From: Rhizobiales bacterium GAS188 | Lineage (GTDB): Bacteria; Pseudomonadota; Alphaproteobacteria; Rhizobiales; Beijerinckiaceae | DNA length: 64,000 nucleotides | Reading direction: 5' to 3' | NCBI GenBank assembly: GCA_900104855.1 | Contig: FNSS01000001.1 | Coordinates: forward strand, 930,001 to 994,000 | Part shown: one piece after another, positions 179 to 7,791 of the stretch | How the letters are laid out: each line of letters starts with the position of its first letter | Numbering within the stretch: the first letter of the stretch is position 1 | The notes under the pieces: model-generated | Databases searched by the model: none | What the model saw: the letters and a program-made list of their open reading frames with translations, nothing else | What the model was told of the DNA's origin: nothing | Translations under genes and position numbers: made by a program

Positions 179-264
179 CTGGGACCGCGGGCGTCTCGCC
201 CGCACTTGCGACGGTGAGCCGCGCCGCCGGGAAGGAAGGGCAACCGAGACGGTCGCGGTCCCAG
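179..264 (+). repeat. Composite palindromic repeat, copy 1 (REP-like, about 85 bp)
   Basis: Outer inverted repeat TGGGACCGCG (180-189) pairs with CGCGGTCCCA (254-263). Just inside is a second palindrome, GCGGGCG-TC-TCGCCCGC. The same arrangement with about 80% identity by eye occurs on the minus strand around the IS insertion (2781-2860 joined to 4269-4278), so this is a dispersed repeat rather than a gene-specific structure. Confidence 0.75.
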
Positions 265-276
265 ATCAGCCCCAGG

Positions 277-1605
277 TCAACGAGGCGGCGTGCCGTTGAC
301 CTCGAGCACCTCTCCGGCGAAATAGAGCGAGCCGGCGAGCAGGATGCGCGGCGGCACCGGCCAGGCGCGCGCGCTCAGCCTCTCGAGCGCCGCCTCGATG
401 CCCGGTGCTTCCTCCGCCTTCAATCCGGCCTCGCGCGCCAATTCGGCGAGCTGGCCCGCCGGGCGTCCCGTAGTGCTCGCCAGCAGCGGCACGGCCAGAA
501 GCTCGGAGGCGAGCCCGTGGAAGGGCCGCAGGAAGCCCGCCGCATCCTTGCTCGACAGCATGGCTGCGATCATCACCAGCGGGCGCGGCGATTGATGCTC
601 GAGATCCCCCATGGCGGCCGCCAGCACCCGTCCGCCGTCGGGATTATGACCGCCATCGAGCCAGAGCTCGGCGCCGGCCGGAGCCAGCGCCACGAGCTTG
701 CCCTTGCTCAGCCGCTGCAGCCGCGCCGGCCATTCGGCCGTGCTGAGGCCGCGCTCGAATTCATGTCCGCCGAGGGGGGCGAGTTTCGCCGCCCTCAGCG
801 CCGCAATCGCGGTCGCGGCATTGATCTGCTGATGGCGGCCGGGCAGGCGCGGCAATGGCAGGTCGAGGAGGCCGTCCTCATCCTCGAAGACCAAGCGGCC
901 ATTCTCCTCGCGCACATGGAAATCCTCGCGGCCCAGCACCAGCCTGGCGGCGCTGCGTTCGGCTTCCCGGCGCAGCACCGCCTCGGCCTCCGGATAGTCC
1001 TGGGGCGCGATGACCGCAGGCGCGCCGCGCTTGAAGATGCCGGCTTTCTCCTGGGCGATGTCGGCGAGCGTCGATCCGAGCCATTCCTGATGATCGAGCC
1101 CGATCGGCGTGATCACGGTCGCTACGGGTGATCTGATCACATTGGTGGCATCACCCCGACCGCCGAGGCCGACTTCGAGAAGCACCACATCGGCGGGATG
1201 ACGGGCAAAGAGCAGGAAGGTCGCGGCCGTGGTGATCTCGAAGAAGCTGATGTCGCGGCCGGCATTGAGGCGCTCGCAACGCTCGAGGGCCGAGACCAGC
1301 TCCTCCTCGCCGATCAGCTCTCCCGGGGCGCCCTTGCGTCCGAGCCGGATGCGCTCATGGAAGCGCACGAGATGCGGAGAGGTATGCACATGCACGGCGA
1401 GGCCTGCCGCCTCGAGCGTCGCGCGCATGAAGGCGATAGTCGAGCCCTTGCCGTTGGTGCCGCCGACATGGATGACGGGAGGCAGGTGCAGATGCGGGTC
1501 GCCGAGATCCGCGAGCAGGCGCTCGAGCCGCCCGAGCGACAGGTCCATCTTGCGGGCATGCAGCACCAGCAGGCGTTGCAGCAGGGCGTCCGAGGGCAGC
1601 TTCAT
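277..1605 (-). CDS. folC: Bifunctional dihydrofolate synthase / folylpolyglutamate synthase
   Basis: FolC adds glutamate to dihydropteroate and extends folate polyglutamate tails in the cytoplasm using ATP. The 442-residue protein has the usual family length and the Mur-ligase ATP loop GGTNGKGST near residue 50, followed by the expected HTSPHLVRFHERI segment and the C-terminal ligase domain with LDGGHNPDGG. It lies 165 bases downstream of accD, the usual gene order in this order of bacteria, so both are likely co-transcribed. The intergenic segment carries a perfect hairpin and an 18-bp-period duplication. Confidence 0.95.
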   Translation of the reverse strand: MKLPSDALLQRLLVLHARKMDLSLGRLERLLADLGDPHLHLPPVIHVGGTNGKGSTIAFMRATLEAAGLAVHVHTSPHLVRFHERIRLGRKGAPGELIGEEELVSALERCERLNAGRDISFFEITTAATFLLFARHPADVVLLEVGLGGRGDATNVIRSPVATVITPIGLDHQEWLGSTLADIAQEKAGIFKRGAPAVIAPQDYPEAEAVLRREAERSAARLVLGREDFHVREENGRLVFEDEDGLLDLPLPRLPGRHQQINAATAIAALRAAKLAPLGGHEFERGLSTAEWPARLQRLSKGKLVALAPAGAELWLDGGHNPDGGRVLAAAMGDLEHQSPRPLVMIAAMLSSKDAAGFLRPFHGLASELLAVPLLASTTGRPAGQLAELAREAGLKAEEAPGIEAALERLSARAWPVPPRILLAGSLYFAGEVLEVNGTPPR

Positions 1606-1770: not shown

Positions 1771-2673
1771 CTATTCGGCGACCGCGGCCAGAATCTGCTC
1801 GTCCGCGGCGGGCAGCATCACCGGTCGCGGCGCATGCATCAGCAATCGGCACAGGCGCGCCAGGGTCGCCCGCATCTCGCCGCGCGGCACCACCATGTCG
1901 ACCATGCCGTGCTCCTTGAGATATTCGGCCTTCTGGAAACCGTCCGGCAGCTTCTCGCGGATGGTCTGCTCGATGACGCGCGGCCCCGCGAAGGCAATCA
2001 GGGCGCCGGGCTCGGCGACATGCACATCTCCGAGCATCGCATAGGAGGCCGTCACGCCGCCGGTCGTCGGATCGGTCAGCACCACGATATAGGGCAGCCT
2101 CGCCTCGCGCAGCTTGCGCACGGCGACTGTGGTGCGCGGCATCTGCATGAGCGACAAGATGCCCTCCTGCATGCGCATTCCACCGCCGCTCGCGAACAGG
2201 ATGAGCGGGGTGCGGCGCGCCATCGCGGCCTCGACGGCCGTGATGATCGCTTCGCCGGCCGCCATGCCGAGCGAGCCGCCCATGAAGTGGAAATCCTGGA
2301 CCGCGACCGTGACCGGCAGGCTCTCGAGCGTGCCGCGCACCACCTTGATGGCATCCTGGAGGCCGGTCTTGGCCTTGGCCTCCTTGAGGCGATCGGTATA
2401 GCGCTTCTCGTCGCGGAAACGCAGCGGATCGAGCGGCACTTCCGGGAGCGGCACATCCTCCTGCGAGCCCGGATCGAGCGTGATCGACAGGCGCTGCGCC
2501 GCAGTGACGCGCATATGGTGGTTCGAGCCCGGAATGACCCAGAGATTGGCCTCGACATCCTTGTGGAACACCAGCTGGCCCGTTTCCGGGCATTTGATCC
2601 ACAAATTCTCCGTGGTCTCCCGCCGCAGCAGGCTGCGGATCTTCGGGCGCACCACCGTCGTGATCCAGTTCAT
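1771..2673 (-). CDS. accD: Acetyl-CoA carboxylase carboxyltransferase subunit beta
   Basis: AccD with AccA transfers the carboxyl group from carboxybiotin to acetyl-CoA, the first step of fatty-acid synthesis. The 300-residue protein starts [12 protein letters not shown] and carries the crotonase-like core with [16 protein letters not shown] and [10 protein letters not shown] segments. The N-terminal zinc ribbon is degenerate: of the four cysteine positions only Cys28 remains (KCPETG; later positions are Ile47 and Ser50). Loss of the ribbon cysteines is known in Hyphomicrobiales AccD. The start region is tandemly duplicated (2665-2695). An IS element separates accD from trpA, so its promoter may now lie in or near that element. 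Confidence 0.95.
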
Positions 2674-2695
2674 CGGCGTGTCCAGTTCATCGGCG
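2665..2695 (-). repeat. Duplicated accD start region creating a six-codon upstream ORF
   Basis: CCAGTTCATCGGCG occurs at 2665-2678 and 2682-2695 with a 17-bp period. Each unit carries a minus-strand ATG-AAC-TGG. The upstream ATG (2690-2688) opens the peptide MNWTRR, whose TGA overlaps the accD ATG at 2673-2671. Confidence 0.8.
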
Positions 2696-2780
2696 ATTTG
2701 TCGACAAGATTTCGAGCCCCAACCTTTGGGGCGCGCACTTTAGATGGCCCCGAGCGCAATGTCATGCAACCGGGGCCAAT

Positions 2781-2860
2781 TGGGACCGCCACCGTCTCGA
2801 TCGCCCTTACCTTCGCGGCTGCGCCGGCCTCGCGGCCCGCAAGAGCGGGCGAGGACGCCC
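2781..2860 (-). repeat. Composite palindromic repeat, copy 2, interrupted by the IS element
   Basis: Read on the minus strand, 4278-4269 plus 2860-2781 reconstruct the element seen at 179-264, including the GCGGGCG...CGCCCGC palindrome, a GAAGG-AAGGGC stretch and the closing GGTCCCA. The IS inserted inside the inner palindrome and duplicated 14 bp of it. Confidence 0.7.
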
Positions 2861-4254
2861 ATATGCGCTAAGTTAAGAGCATTCCAAAGTTGTCGGCCTG
2901 TTTCTTTCTCTTTCTTGGGGGTTCGTAGAGTGCGTTTGGGAGGCCGTGTCTGCGGATATTGCGAATCTGCGCGGCGAGGTCACCCAGTAGATGGGCGACG
3001 ATGACTATGCGGCACAGGACGAGGAGCCGGATTTTGCAAGGGCTTCGATAGGCGGCGGCGGTGGTTTGAGGGGGGAATGGCGCGCTCGAGGGCGCTTGCG
3101 AGGAGATTGGCGAGGAGGGCGGCGGCGAGATTGGCCAGGATCCAGGTTCGCGCGAGCGCAGGATCTTTGGCGGGGACGGCTCGCATCGCGAAGATGGATT
3201 TGAGGGCCTTGAAGGCCAGCTCAATCTGCCATCGCAGCCGGTAGAGAGGGATGAGCCGTTCGATCGGCCAATCCTTGGCCGGCAGGTTCGTGGCGAACAT
3301 GATCAGGCCGGCCATCGCCTTGGTGTCCTGGCGGGGCGTCACCCCGTGCTTGGAGCGCGAGCGTTCGATGCGGGCGCGCTCGCGGGCGGCGACCGCTTCG
3401 CTGGCGCGCACAATGACGATGCGGGTCTTCAGCGGCTCGGGCAAAGGCCGGGGGTTTGCCCGGTCCTTTTTGGGCTTGGCCTCTTGCAATGTGACTGCGA
3501 TCTCGACGGCTTCGGCCGCGCCGAGGGCGGTGATGACATCCTGCGCGGTCAGGCGTTCGCCAGTCTTGTCATAAATCATCTTCATCGCGCTGATCCCGGC
3601 GCGGACGAGGAAAAACGCCATGTTGTCCGCCAGTTCCCGCAAGGCTTTGGTTTTGGCGTAATTGCGGTCGGCGACAGCAATGGTCCCCGGCTCGATCCGA
3701 GCCAGGCTCAGCGTTTCGCCGACCTTCACGTCGGTCAGATTCAGGAGATCAAATCTTCCGGTCCCGGGATCGTAGCTGGCGTGCAGCCGATGCTGCCCAC
3801 CGCGTTTGCCAGGGCCGGCGAACATGCTGCCATCGACAAGACGGATCGGCGGGCCTCGCCAAAGCGCCGAAGGCTCGGCCCATTCGGTGGACAGGCTCAG
3901 AAGCCGACCTACCACCGAAGACAGCAGATCGCCGCAGTCGCGCAGTCGCTGCAGCACGGCCACGTCGCTCAGCGGGATGCCCAACGCCGAATGGCTCCAC
4001 GCCGCCGTCGAGCGCAGAGACTGTCCGGTTGCCGCATAGCCAAGCGCTAGGCGAAGCAGTTGCGATCCATTGCAGATACGACGACGACGAACCAGCGCGC
4101 CAGTCTCGCGCGCCAGCGCGTCCAGCTTACTCGCGCCGCCCAGAAGACCCTCGACCGCGGGCCAGTCACCTTCAAATGAGAACACCGAATCATCTTGCAT
4201 CCGCAGCTTGAATCACAAGCCGCCAGCGGTGTGAATCCCAAAGTTAGCGCATAT
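2861..4254 (-). mobile_element. IS4-family insertion sequence, complete (about 1394 bp)
   Basis: Both ends carry the inverted repeat ATATGCGCTAA (2861-2871 and, reversed, 4244-4254) with weaker matching beyond. Both flanks carry GGGCGAGGACGCCC (2847-2860 and 4255-4268), a 14-bp direct repeat, or 12 bp if the ends are read as CATATG. Long target duplications of about this size are known for the IS4 group. The element contains one transposase gene on the minus strand, now frameshifted. It separates trpA from accD and is oriented with both. The identical flanks suggest a recent insertion. Confidence 0.9.
2868..4200 (-). pseudogene. IS4-family transposase, frameshifted near the 3' end
   Basis: DDE transposase of the IS4 family: LVDGS supplies the first Asp, VADRNYA the second, and YRLRWQIELAFKALK matches the Y-(2)-R-(3)-E-(6)-K signature exactly. 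The main frame opens at 4200 and runs about 375 residues until a six-base C run (G run on the plus strand, 3070-3075). Beyond it the frame gives an arginine/proline-rich tail ending at 2980. The +1 frame instead gives a sensible helix-rich C-terminus (LLVLCRIVIVAHLLGDLAAQ) ending at TAG 2868-2870, inside the terminal repeat. One extra base in the C run, or a sequencing error or slippage site there, explains this. Repaired length is about 443 residues. Confidence 0.85.
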
Positions 4255-4359
4255 GGGCGAGGACGCCCGCGTTCCCAGGGTGCGCGCTCGCGGCGCTGTC
4301 GAGCTGCCTTCACGTCGATCCGTGACGGTCTGTCCCGCGATCTGACCGAGCGGCGTCGG

Positions 4360-4596
4360 CTACCGCGTGGGATAATCCCCATCGATGGCGATGTAATAGC
4401 TCGGACCCTCCGGGCCGAGGGGAGCGAGAGTGGGAAGGGCAAAGTCGGTGGTGCCGTTCCCGCCATAGGTCGGTCCGATCAGGCTGAACAGGGGCTGATT
4501 CTGTGCAATAGAAAGAAGCATACCATTGCAAAGCGCCCATCCGGTCGGGGCAAAGTTGAAGGGAAAAATCTGGATTGTGCCAAGAATCGGTTTCAT
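4360..4596 (-). CDS. Small phage-tail-collar-type protein
   Basis: A 78-residue protein opening with an aromatic-rich segment (GTIQIFPFNFAP-GWALCNG) then SIAQNQPLFSLIGPTYGG, the conserved N-terminus of phage tail collar / microcystin-dependent proteins. After FALPTL it goes almost directly to YYIAIDGDYPTR, which resembles the very C-terminus of that family. Usual members are about 170-200 residues, so this is either a naturally short version or an internally deleted copy. It is isolated between trpA and the IS, with no other phage genes. Function is unknown. Confidence 0.7.
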   Translation of the reverse strand: MKPILGTIQIFPFNFAPTGWALCNGMLLSIAQNQPLFSLIGPTYGGNGTTDFALPTLAPLGPEGPSYYIAIDGDYPTR

Positions 4597-4765
4597 GATG
4601 AGTATACCCCTGCGGAATACGGCGTCTCGAGCGGCCCCTTCAGACTATTCCATGCAGCCATACCGGAGTCGAACTGTCCACGGGCGAGCGTGAACCGCGG
4701 TTCACCGGCAGCGCGGACAGCTCCAGAACCCCATGTTCAAACGGGCCGACTGCCGGGCCAAGGGT

Positions 4766-4807
4766 AGTCGTCGCCAAGTGCAGTCGTCGCCAAGCGTAGC
4801 CGTCGAG
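4766..4807. repeat. 16-bp tandem repeat downstream of trpA
   Basis: Units at 4766-4781 and 4782-4797 (AGTCGTCGCCAAG...) and a partial third unit. It lies in the 231-base gap between trpA and the tail-collar gene, where I see no other feature. Confidence 0.65.
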
Positions 4808-4827
4808 ACGCCAGGCCTGGCTGGCGC

Positions 4828-5661
4828 TCAAGCCGCCTTGCGCACGCGGGCGACGCCCTGCGCCAGGGCCCGCACCAGAGCGGCGACCGCCTCGACCGTG
4901 CCTGACGTTGCCTGGCCTTGCGCGTCGAGCGAGCCGCGCACCGCCTCGACGATCGAGGTGCCGACCACGACCGCGTCGGCGCAGGCGGCGATCGCGGCGG
5001 CATGCTCCGGCGTCTTCACTCCGAAGCCGACCGCTACGGGAAGCGCCGTATGACGTTTGATGCGCTCAACCGAGGCCGCAACCGCGGCGAAATCCGGGGT
5101 GGCCGCGCCGGTGATGCCGGTGATCGACACGTAATAGACGAAGCCCGTGGTGTTCTGCAGGACCTTCGGCAGACGCTTGTCGTCGGTCGTCGGCGTCGCG
5201 AGGCGAATGAAAGCAAGGCCGGCCTTCAGCGCCGGCAGGCACAATTCCGCATCCTCCTCGGGCGGCAGGTCGACGATGATCAGGCCGTCGACGCCGGCTT
5301 CCACGGCTTCGGCAAGGAAGCGTTCGACGCCACGCGCATAGATCGGATTGTAATAGCCCATCAGGATGATGGGCGTGTCGCCATCGCTCTTGCGGAATTG
5401 CCGCACGAGGTCGAGCGTCCTGGTCAAGGTCTCGCCGCCCTTGAGGGCCCGCAAGCCCGCCGCCTGGACCGCGGGACCATCCGCCATCGGGTCGGTGAAG
5501 GGCATGCCGAGCTCGATGATGTCGGCGCCGGCCGGCGGCAGCGCCTTGGCGATGGCGAGCGACGTCTCGTGATCGGGATCGCCCGCCGTGACGAAGGTCA
5601 CGAGGGCGGCGCGGCCTTGCGCCCGGCAATGGGCGAAACGGGCAGTCATGCGAGCGGTCAT
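4828..5661 (-). CDS. trpA: Tryptophan synthase alpha subunit
   Basis: TrpA cleaves indole-3-glycerol phosphate to indole and glyceraldehyde 3-phosphate and passes indole to TrpB. The 277-residue TIM barrel has the catalytic Glu and Asp in [17 protein letters not shown] and the phosphate-binding [12 protein letters not shown] and VVVGTSIV segments. It follows trpB by 33 bases and ends the trp part of the operon. The first eight residues, MTARMTAR, look like a duplicated start (two ATG codons 12 bases apart); initiation could use either. Confidence 0.97.
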
Positions 5662-5694: not shown

Positions 5695-6912
5695 CTAGCG
5701 CCCGGCCAGCATCTGCGCCACTTGCGGCACGTCCTTGTCGCCGCGCCCCGAGAGCCCGACCACCATGAGATGCTCGCGCGGCAGCTTCGGCGCGAGCTCG
5801 GCGACGCGCGCCAGCGCATGAGCTGGCTCGAGCGCCGGGATGATGCCTTCGAGCTTCGAGAGCAGCTGGAAGGCCTCGAGCGCCTCGGCATCGGTCGCCG
5901 ACAGATAGGTGACGCGGCCGACTTCATGCAGCCAGGAATGCTCAGGGCCAATGCCCGGATAATCGAGCCCGGCCGAGATCGAATGCGCCTCGGTGATCTG
6001 CCCGTCCGCGTCCATGAGCAGATAGGTGCGGTTGCCGTGCAGCACGCCGGGGCGCCCGCCTGTGAGCGAAGCCGCATGCAGCCCGCTCGCTATGCCGTGC
6101 CCGGCCGCCTCGACCCCGTAGATCGCCACGTCCGGGTCGTCGAGGAAGGGATGGAACAGGCCCATGGCGTTCGAGCCGCCGCCGATGCAGGCGATGAGCG
6201 AATCCGGCAGCCGGCCTTCGGCTTCCTGCAACTGGGCGCGCACCTCCTGCCCGATGACGCATTGGAAATCCCGCACCATCATCGGATAGGGATGCGGGCC
6301 CGCCACCGTGCCGATGCAGTAGAAAGTGTCGGCCACATTGGTCACCCAGTCGCGCAGCGCCTCGTTGAGCGCATCCTTGAGCGTCTTCGAGCCCGAATGC
6401 ACCGGCACCACCTCGGCGCCCAGCATCTGCATGCGGATGACATTGGGTTGCTGACGCTCGACATCGACCGCGCCCATATAGACGATGCATTGCAGGCCGA
6501 AGCGGGCGCAGAGCGTGGCGGTGGCGACGCCGTGCTGGCCGGCGCCCGTCTCGGCGATGATGCGGGTCTTGCCCATGCGCCGCGCCAGCAAGATCTGGCC
6601 GAGCACATTGTTCACCTTATGCGAGCCCGTATGGTTCAATTCCTCGCGCTTCAGGTAGATCTTGGCGCCGCCGAGATGGGCCGTGAGGCGCTCAGCGAAA
6701 TAGAGCGGGCTCGGCCGGCCGACATAATGGCGCGAGAAACCGTCGAGCTCGGCGCGGAAAGCCGGATCCTGCCTCGCCTCCTCATAGGCGCGCTCGAGAT
6801 CGAGCACGAGCGGCATCAAGGTCTCGGCGACGAAGCGGCCGCCGAACAGGCCGAAGCGGCCGCTCTCATCCGGGCCGGAGCGGAAGGAGTTCGGCTTCGT
6901 CTGGACGGTCAC
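5695..6912 (-). CDS. trpB: Tryptophan synthase beta subunit
   Basis: TrpB is the pyridoxal-phosphate enzyme that joins indole and serine to make tryptophan. The 405-residue protein shows the PLP lysine in [11 protein letters not shown], the phosphate cup GGGSNAMG and the monovalent-cation region near the C-terminus. Start is GTG at 6912 with GGAG about 10 bases upstream. It sits 33 bases after trpF and 33 before trpA in the same direction. Confidence 0.97.
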
Positions 6913-6945: not shown

Positions 6946-7590
6946 TCAGGTCTCAGCCACGCGCGCCGCGCGGATGAAGGCTGCGATTTTCGCCTCGTCC
7001 TTTAGGCCGGGCGCGCGCTCGACGCCAGACGAGACATCGACGCCGTCCGGCCGCGCCACCCGGATGGCCTCTGCGACATTGTCGGAGTCGAGCCCGCCCG
7101 AGAGCATGATCGGCGCTTGCGCGTTGAAGCCTTCGAGCATCGTCCAATCGAAACTCAGGCCGTTTCCGCCCGGCAACGCGGCATCGGCCGGTGGCTTGGT
7201 GTCGAGGAGGAAGCGGTCGGCGTTCCCATAGGCCTGCGTCGCCGCGAGGTCGCTTCGCACCGCGACCCCGATCACCTTCATCAGCGGCACACCGAAAAGG
7301 GCGCGCAGATGGGCCAGGCGTTCCGGGCTTTCCCGCCCATGCAGTTGCAGGAGATCGGGACGCAGCGCCGCCACGATGTCGGCAAGCGCCGCATCCTCGG
7401 CATCGACCGTCAGCGCCACGATGCCGGCGCGGCCACGGGCGCGGCTGGCGAGTGCGGCGGCCGCCTCGATCGAAACATTGCGCGGGCTGCGCGCGAAGAA
7501 GACGAAGCCGACCATATCGGCGCCGGCCTTGATCGCCGCGTCGACGGAGGCTGGCGTCGACAGGCCGCAGATCTTGACGAGAAGGGACAT
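6946..7590 (-). CDS. trpF: Phosphoribosylanthranilate isomerase
   Basis: TrpF converts N-(5-phosphoribosyl)anthranilate to the CdRP intermediate of tryptophan synthesis. The motifs VKICGLSTPASV (catalytic Cys), VDAEDAAL (general acid region), PIMLSGGLDSDN and GVDVSSGVE are all present. The open frame extends to 7644, but the conserved protein begins at MSLLVKICG, so ATG 7590 is chosen, giving 214 residues. It is the first gene of the trp cluster and is divergent from the molybdenum enzyme genes; the 201-base divergent gap holds no convincing promoter match. Confidence 0.95.
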   Translation of the reverse strand: MSLLVKICGLSTPASVDAAIKAGADMVGFVFFARSPRNVSIEAAAALASRARGRAGIVALTVDAEDAALADIVAALRPDLLQLHGRESPERLAHLRALFGVPLMKVIGVAVRSDLAATQAYGNADRFLLDTKPPADAALPGGNGLSFDWTMLEGFNAQAPIMLSGGLDSDNVAEAIRVARPDGVDVSSGVERAPGLKDEAKIAAFIRAARVAET

Positions 7591-7791
7591 CAGAAAACGG
7601 GCATCTCTTGGCTCAGTTGCGCAGGAATTGCGCAGTTGCGACATTACATTTCGGCAATCTCTATCACATTGGCGTCAACCTGATCGAGGCCTGTTCCTCC
7701 GGGCATTGACCAGTCGCGTCGGGGCGCCAGATAATCCTTCGGGGCTGGACAACTTCCGCCCGCGCCGACGGCGCCTATGGGGGATCCCATC

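Follow-up and report, generated by a model that had tools for sequence, protein, structure and literature searches.

An insertion sequence (IS) of the IS4 family lies between trpA and accD in the window, the stretch of 64,000 nucleotides analyzed here, and all four genomic copies of this element occupy the same point of a repeated hairpin. The likely explanation of the locus is that the element, a member of the IS421-like clade, moved into a hairpin repeat already present in the trpA-accD spacer, that transcription of accD and folC starts in the interval between the IS and accD, and that the insertion is nearly neutral. Homing of IS4-family elements to repeated hairpins is known; what is new is this further element. 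The features of the locus, in window coordinates, are as follows.

277..1605, minus strand: folC (TIGR01499)
1771..2673, minus strand: accD (TIGR00515)
2737..2765, minus strand: promoter-like site ATGACA-N17-TAAAGT upstream of accD, by consensus match only
2781..2859, minus strand: accD-side part of the split two-hairpin repeat, by comparison with intact copies
2848..2859, no strand: accD-side copy of the 12-bp target duplication GGCGAGGACGCC
2860..4255, minus strand: IS4-family insertion sequence, 1396 bp, both ends beginning CATATGCGCTAA; ends set by homology with relatives
2980..4200, minus strand: transposase, 406 aa, with D123-D178-E327 and Y320-R323-E327-K334
4256..4267, no strand: trpA-side copy of the 12-bp target duplication GGCGAGGACGCC
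4256..4278, minus strand: trpA-side part of the split two-hairpin repeat, by comparison with intact copies
4360..4596, minus strand: small tail-collar domain gene, 78 aa, outside the IS (PF07484, 4.5e-23)
4828..5661, minus strand: trpA (TIGR00262)
5695..6912, minus strand: trpB (TIGR00263)
6946..7644, minus strand: trpF (NF002295)

From trpA to accD, the order is the collar gene, one end of the split repeat, the IS, the rest of the repeat and 107 bp, with the transposase, trpA and accD co-directional on the minus strand. An earlier note on this DNA had described a trpF-trpB-trpA-accD-folC unit holding, between trpA and accD, a complete IS with intact ends and a small phage-like gene. All five genes were confirmed on the minus strand, the element spans 2860-4255 with its ORF intact, and the small gene encodes a Phage Tail Collar domain. 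Elsewhere in the genome (G000:C1:1237181-1238549, L135-L137), three consecutive collar-domain frames resemble this gene, with 48-63% identity over 56-57 residues, and an intact copy of the two-hairpin repeat is located downstream of folC (window 180-263). A search of Rfam with 2600-4900 gave no matches at E 0.1.

Judged by its sequence, the element is a complete member of the IS4 family and of its IS421-like clade. The family had been named correctly in the earlier note: the transposase scores 134.7 bits against NCBIfam NF033592 (IS4 family; curated cut-off 115) and also matches PF01609. The IS4 signature Y-(2)-R-(3)-E-(6)-K (De Palmenaer 2008) is present at Y320, R323, E327 and K334, residues that all 15 aligned sequences conserve, and D123, D178 and E327 are separated by 54 and 148 residues, the first spacer being slightly shorter than in the D(60-110)D(100-150)E pattern of the same authors. 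Two further IS4 traits in De Palmenaer 2008 are a single ORF without frameshift and a duplication of about one helix turn; no internal stop was found in any of the four genomic copies, and the duplications measure 12 bp in the window copy (L001) and 11 bp in L003. The claim of a perfect 14-bp target duplication stood in part: the direct repeat GGGCGAGGACGCCC is indeed perfect at 2847-2860 and 4255-4268, but the ends of relatives are mostly CATANGCGCTAAC (CATA) and their duplications are 10-12 bp long; this assigns the outer C and G to the element, places the IS at 2860-4255 and leaves a duplication of 12 bp. These relatives rule out 14 bp as its true length.

Of the two ends, CATATGCGCTAAGTTAAG, downstream of the transposase, agrees with the CAT-------AA--TAA signature of the IS231 subgroup, and CATATGCGCTAACTTTGG, upstream of it, lacks the TAA of that signature. 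In the sections of PMC2266710 that treat it, the IS231 subgroup resembles our element in its 10-12-bp duplications, its target specificity and the signature fitting one end; it differs in its listed size (1450-5400 bp vs 1396 here), in the TAA missing from the end upstream of our transposase, and in being almost confined to Firmicutes.

The insertion is recent, as the earlier note had proposed. The genome (9.09 Mb in three contigs) carries four copies of the IS, and the other three differ from the window copy at 1 (L002), 19 and 31 of 1394 bases; such near-identical copies argue for recency. The transposase was absent from the other 297 genomes searched in the family (E 1e-60), and class-wide, at E 1e-50, 2 of 385 genomes matched, one of them the genome itself. 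The IS was not found in three congeners. The 886 plasmid records that match the transposase are all below 60% identity, and 80 relative loci from GTDB contigs, a set from which records of the same or a very near genome may be left out, are 28-41% identical over the best segment. Solo IS ends were represented by three one-mismatch matches (L150-L152), none of them in the hairpin.

While the earlier note had seen the target duplication, it had missed the target itself, which is a repeated hairpin. The four IS copies are inserted at the same point of GCGGGCG-loop-CGCCCGC, with hairpin arms on both sides. An intact repeat is about 90 bp long and consists of TGGGACC, this hairpin, NCTTG, about 40 bp and a second hairpin ending approximately GGTCGCGGTCCCA. 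The genome contains 115 exact palindromes with a 3-base loop, among which at least L116 lies without the context of the repeat, and 36 with a 4-base loop; the reversed-pattern control gave 0 and 1, respectively. REP sequences are recognized as short palindromes in high copy, and the commonest form here, GCGGGCGTCCCGCCCGC, has 88 exact copies and none in the three congeners (the reversed-pattern control gave 1 in one congener). The three congeners, in which this form is absent, have genomes of 4.7-4.9 Mb, against 9.09 Mb here. Could the IS and the repeat coincide by chance? There are four copies only, which is all that favors this reading; however, the exact palindromes with 3- or 4-base loops make up about 0.03% of the genome and all four copies are inserted at the same base, so a chance overlap is improbable enough for us to reject it. 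Some REP sequences are moved by a Y1 transposase (RAYT), whose gene they flank; here, three matches to PF01797 (Y1 transposase) were found, at G000:C2:416676 (L224), G000:C1:1945362 (L225) and G000:C1:6886851 (L226), with no exact palindrome within 1.5 kb of any of them, exact copies only being considered.

The repeats have a preferred orientation along the chromosome. By hand count on contig C1, the minus strand carries 27 of the 31 exact hairpin copies below 2.79 Mb, the plus strand 48 of the 55 between 2.98 and 6.76 Mb, and the minus strand again the two farther on (Fisher p 6e-12, first group against second). In 40 sampled 20-kb stretches, the motif GGGNAGGG changes its strand preference at roughly the positions where the repeats do, near 2.8-2.9 Mb and 6.8-6.9 Mb. 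GC skew was too weak to tell where the origin is located. This distribution suggests that the hairpin repeats are co-oriented with replication.

We propose that the transposase chooses palindromes rimmed by G and C and would cut near the rims with a stagger of 10-12 bases, such that the duplication would correspond to the hairpin core. Being abundant and presumably mostly outside genes, the repeats would offer safe places, and an IS homing to them could spread with little harm. Only extant copies display the preference for palindromic targets, to which selection may have contributed in part.

accD is an essential fatty-acid gene, and the earlier note had argued that the IS itself breaks the unit, that the distal part then needs rescue, and that the locus is a natural test of polarity. 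The first two arguments were not supported, and the third is weak. The gene order is certainly conserved: among 29 loci from other genomes (the loci compared came from 30 of the 41 genomes with a match, our own included), accD is immediately preceded by a co-directional trpA, at no more than about 265 bp, in 26, and is followed by folC in 26. In a Sargasso Sea survey, accD is reported to come next after trpA in 86.8% of 53 cases (PMC2395257). In two loci, L093 and L108, the 1500 bp upstream of accD contain no match to trpA, which indicates that separation of the two genes is tolerated; a further locus, L097, covers only 322 bp. The spacer here measures 2154 bp, or about 746 bp once the IS and one duplication are subtracted, and since the collar gene and the repeat are also in it, the IS is not the sole separator of trpA and accD. 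The comparison with related genomes without the IS, suggested in the earlier note, was feasible with the three congeners, in which the gap between the end of the trpA match and accD measures 159 bp (a value a few codons too long, as the trpA match stops short), 137 bp and 222 bp, and in whose genomes the collar gene has no match.

Within 2600-4850 we found two promoter-like sites of the E. coli consensus type, compared with 0.4 +- 0.6 in shuffled sequences. Both belong to the minus strand; one immediately precedes the collar gene, and the other is between the IS and accD. The only terminator-like site found in the same interval is on the plus strand. One congener spacer contains TTGAGC-N16-TATAGT, with the second hexamer 47 bp before accD; the other two congeners gave no promoter match that strong, and the spacers align poorly. 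From the promoter-like site, the lack of a minus-strand terminator-like site and the direction of the transposase, we infer that accD has a promoter of its own, possibly supplemented by read-through; transcription of accD and folC would then begin at the site between the IS and accD, and transcripts of the co-directional transposase might run on into them. A contrary reading, which we regard as unlikely, is that the IS has cut accD-folC off from the trp promoter, leaving it dependent on a promoter inside the IS or on transposase read-through. The same direction of the transposase and the same absence of a terminator-like site would permit this, and the adjacency kept in 26 of 29 loci gives it some weight; nevertheless, it has to contend with the promoter-like site between the IS and accD, with congener gaps of 137-222 bp that leave room for a promoter, with a spacer that the collar gene and the repeat lengthen regardless of the IS, and with the two relatives without a nearby trpA match. 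Nothing forces a rescue, and for this reason the IS is a poor test of polarity. The insertion is probably harmless to accD, because the IS uses a repeated hairpin as its landing pad, and it would be near neutral; a conserved operon can be interrupted without offering an experiment on polarity.

The preference for hairpins is shared by relatives. Using 78 of the 80 relative loci in a scan for IS ends (L078 and L079 were omitted as fragments), we recognized both ends in 49; six had flanks too short, and the remaining 43 were classed as 24 direct (exact repeats of 10-12 bp), 9 inverted and 10 neither. Many of the 24 direct-repeat insertions are rimmed by G and C runs. A relative in Geminisphaera colitermitum TAV2, of the Verrucomicrobiota, is 32-33% identical and resides in a different repeat, GCGGGTC-loop-GACCCGC, with 179 copies in that genome (reversed-pattern control 0); three of the 24 direct and three of the 9 inverted insertions are Geminisphaera copies, counted again in the tally of that genome given below. 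Thus, the same clade homes to unrelated repeats in different phyla.

IS421 of E. coli (the name is the RefSeq label; it is presumably the same as IS186) has a transposase 33% identical to ours and ends CATAAGCGCTAACTTAAG. The target of IS186 is GGGG(N)CCCC, and that of IS231A is GGG(N)CCC. The 12 IS421 records examined, among 2807 with a match, are all in G/C-rimmed palindromes with exact 10-bp direct repeats. Because five of them neighbor mokC and three fall between pdeA and nupC, the distinct sites number about six. One copy, L234, sits inside a gene, and hence the target need not be extragenic. Unlike the element described here, IS421 makes its 10-bp duplications in assorted single palindromes belonging to no single repeat family. 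Insertion sequences that target REP sequences, the IS4-family ISRm22 of Sinorhizobium meliloti included, are already on record in the portion of PMC1525189 dealing with them; there, all copies of ISRm22 are at the symmetry axis of repetitive extragenic palindromes and some of its direct repeats are imperfect, as here, whereas its direct repeats are 6 bp long. The likeness is taken from the published description, and ISRm22 is placed in subgroup IS4Sa in PMC2266710.

A plain cut-and-paste insertion does not account for all flanks: two of the four copies here have an inverted loop, and 19 of the 43 relatives' insertions lack an exact direct repeat of at least 10 bp. L001 and L003 have direct duplications. 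In L002 and L004, flanked by GGGCGTCCCGCC and GGCGGGACGCCC, an inverted loop on one side takes the place of the direct repeat, and both outer contexts come from one repeat in one orientation. The intact hairpins of the genome have TCC (29), TCT (6) or ACT (1) as their loop and never GGA in the 36 that were assigned a frame, loci having been sampled rather than all copies taken; this 0 of 36 excludes, for the sampled loci, that reversed loops pre-existed in intact repeats. A simple crossover between IS copies is excluded for L002 and L004 by their outer contexts.

Geminisphaera shows the same phenomenon. In the sampled loci, 14 of 14 intact hairpins read TCCC or TCCT in one frame. One inverted loop is present in five of the eight complete IS copies (L174, L176, L177, L179, L181); the duplication is direct in L175 and L180, and L178 has a reversed loop on both sides. 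Among seven partial or interrupted matches (L182-L188), L186 is inverted, L182 with L188 is direct, and L183, L184, L185 and L187 are as expected for their side. L174 has 353 bp of its left flank in common with L180, which makes it probably not independent, and 87 bp of its right flank in common with L178. In the seven complete inverted cases of both genomes, the two flanks read TCC(C) inward. Similar inverted flanks occur at single loci (L030, L031, L035, L048 and L061), where a simple crossover could still account for them; L073 is inverted too, and was not counted as a loop flip because its core is not palindromic. The 12 E. coli records contain no inverted loops, in which IS421 again differs from our element, and a literature search of titles and abstract openings gave no report of inverted-loop duplications.

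The inverted-loop flanks may be hybrids that arose when IS copies in repeats of opposite orientation underwent homologous recombination or gene conversion, an origin to which we give somewhat less than an even chance. Hybrids are expected to be neither direct nor inverted, as are ten of the 43 relatives' insertions (L018, L024, L055, L056, L059, L062, L066, L070, L082 and L083), and the flanks that L174 has in common with L180 and L178 fit this origin. Tobes and Pareja reason likewise, in their treatment of ISRm22, for its imperfect repeats (PMC1525189). Even so, a single crossover would join like repeat ends, and the outer contexts of L002 and L004 come from one repeat, so that a conversion tract must end inside a stretch of about 7 bp of hairpin arm; the common inward TCC(C) of the seven complete cases is also against exchange of this kind.

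Template switching at an imperfect inverted repeat is known to make it perfect (quasipalindrome correction). It is conceivable, though we hold it with reserve, that during replication such switching flips one loop and perfects the inverted repeat formed by the IS end plus the hairpin arm, the common direction following from the fixed orientation of the repeats to replication. The outcome, a perfect inverted-repeat extension of the IS ends, is the one predicted, flips are missing from intact repeats (0 of 36 here and 0 of 14 in Geminisphaera), and the repeats are co-oriented with the chromosome arms. This correction, however, leaves L178 unexplained with its reversed loop on both sides, has no counterpart in the 12 E. 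coli records, none of which shows a flip, and was linked to bacterial insertion sequences in none of the titles and abstract openings searched.

Tentatively, the two copies here, the five in Geminisphaera and the single loci of other lineages could point to a clade that homes to host-specific hairpin repeats and recurrently flips one loop by a direction-biased process at the IS, not by random exchange; the flipped loop might then make both flanks extend the terminal repeats of the element. If a process linked to the IS is responsible, inverted duplications would preserve a natural trace of hairpin-templated repair, and searches for target duplications would be misled by them. In Geminisphaera, L039 also contains two 135-bp elements (2070-2204 and 3831-3965) with IS-like ends and the same flanking hairpin, which are probably non-autonomous derivatives.
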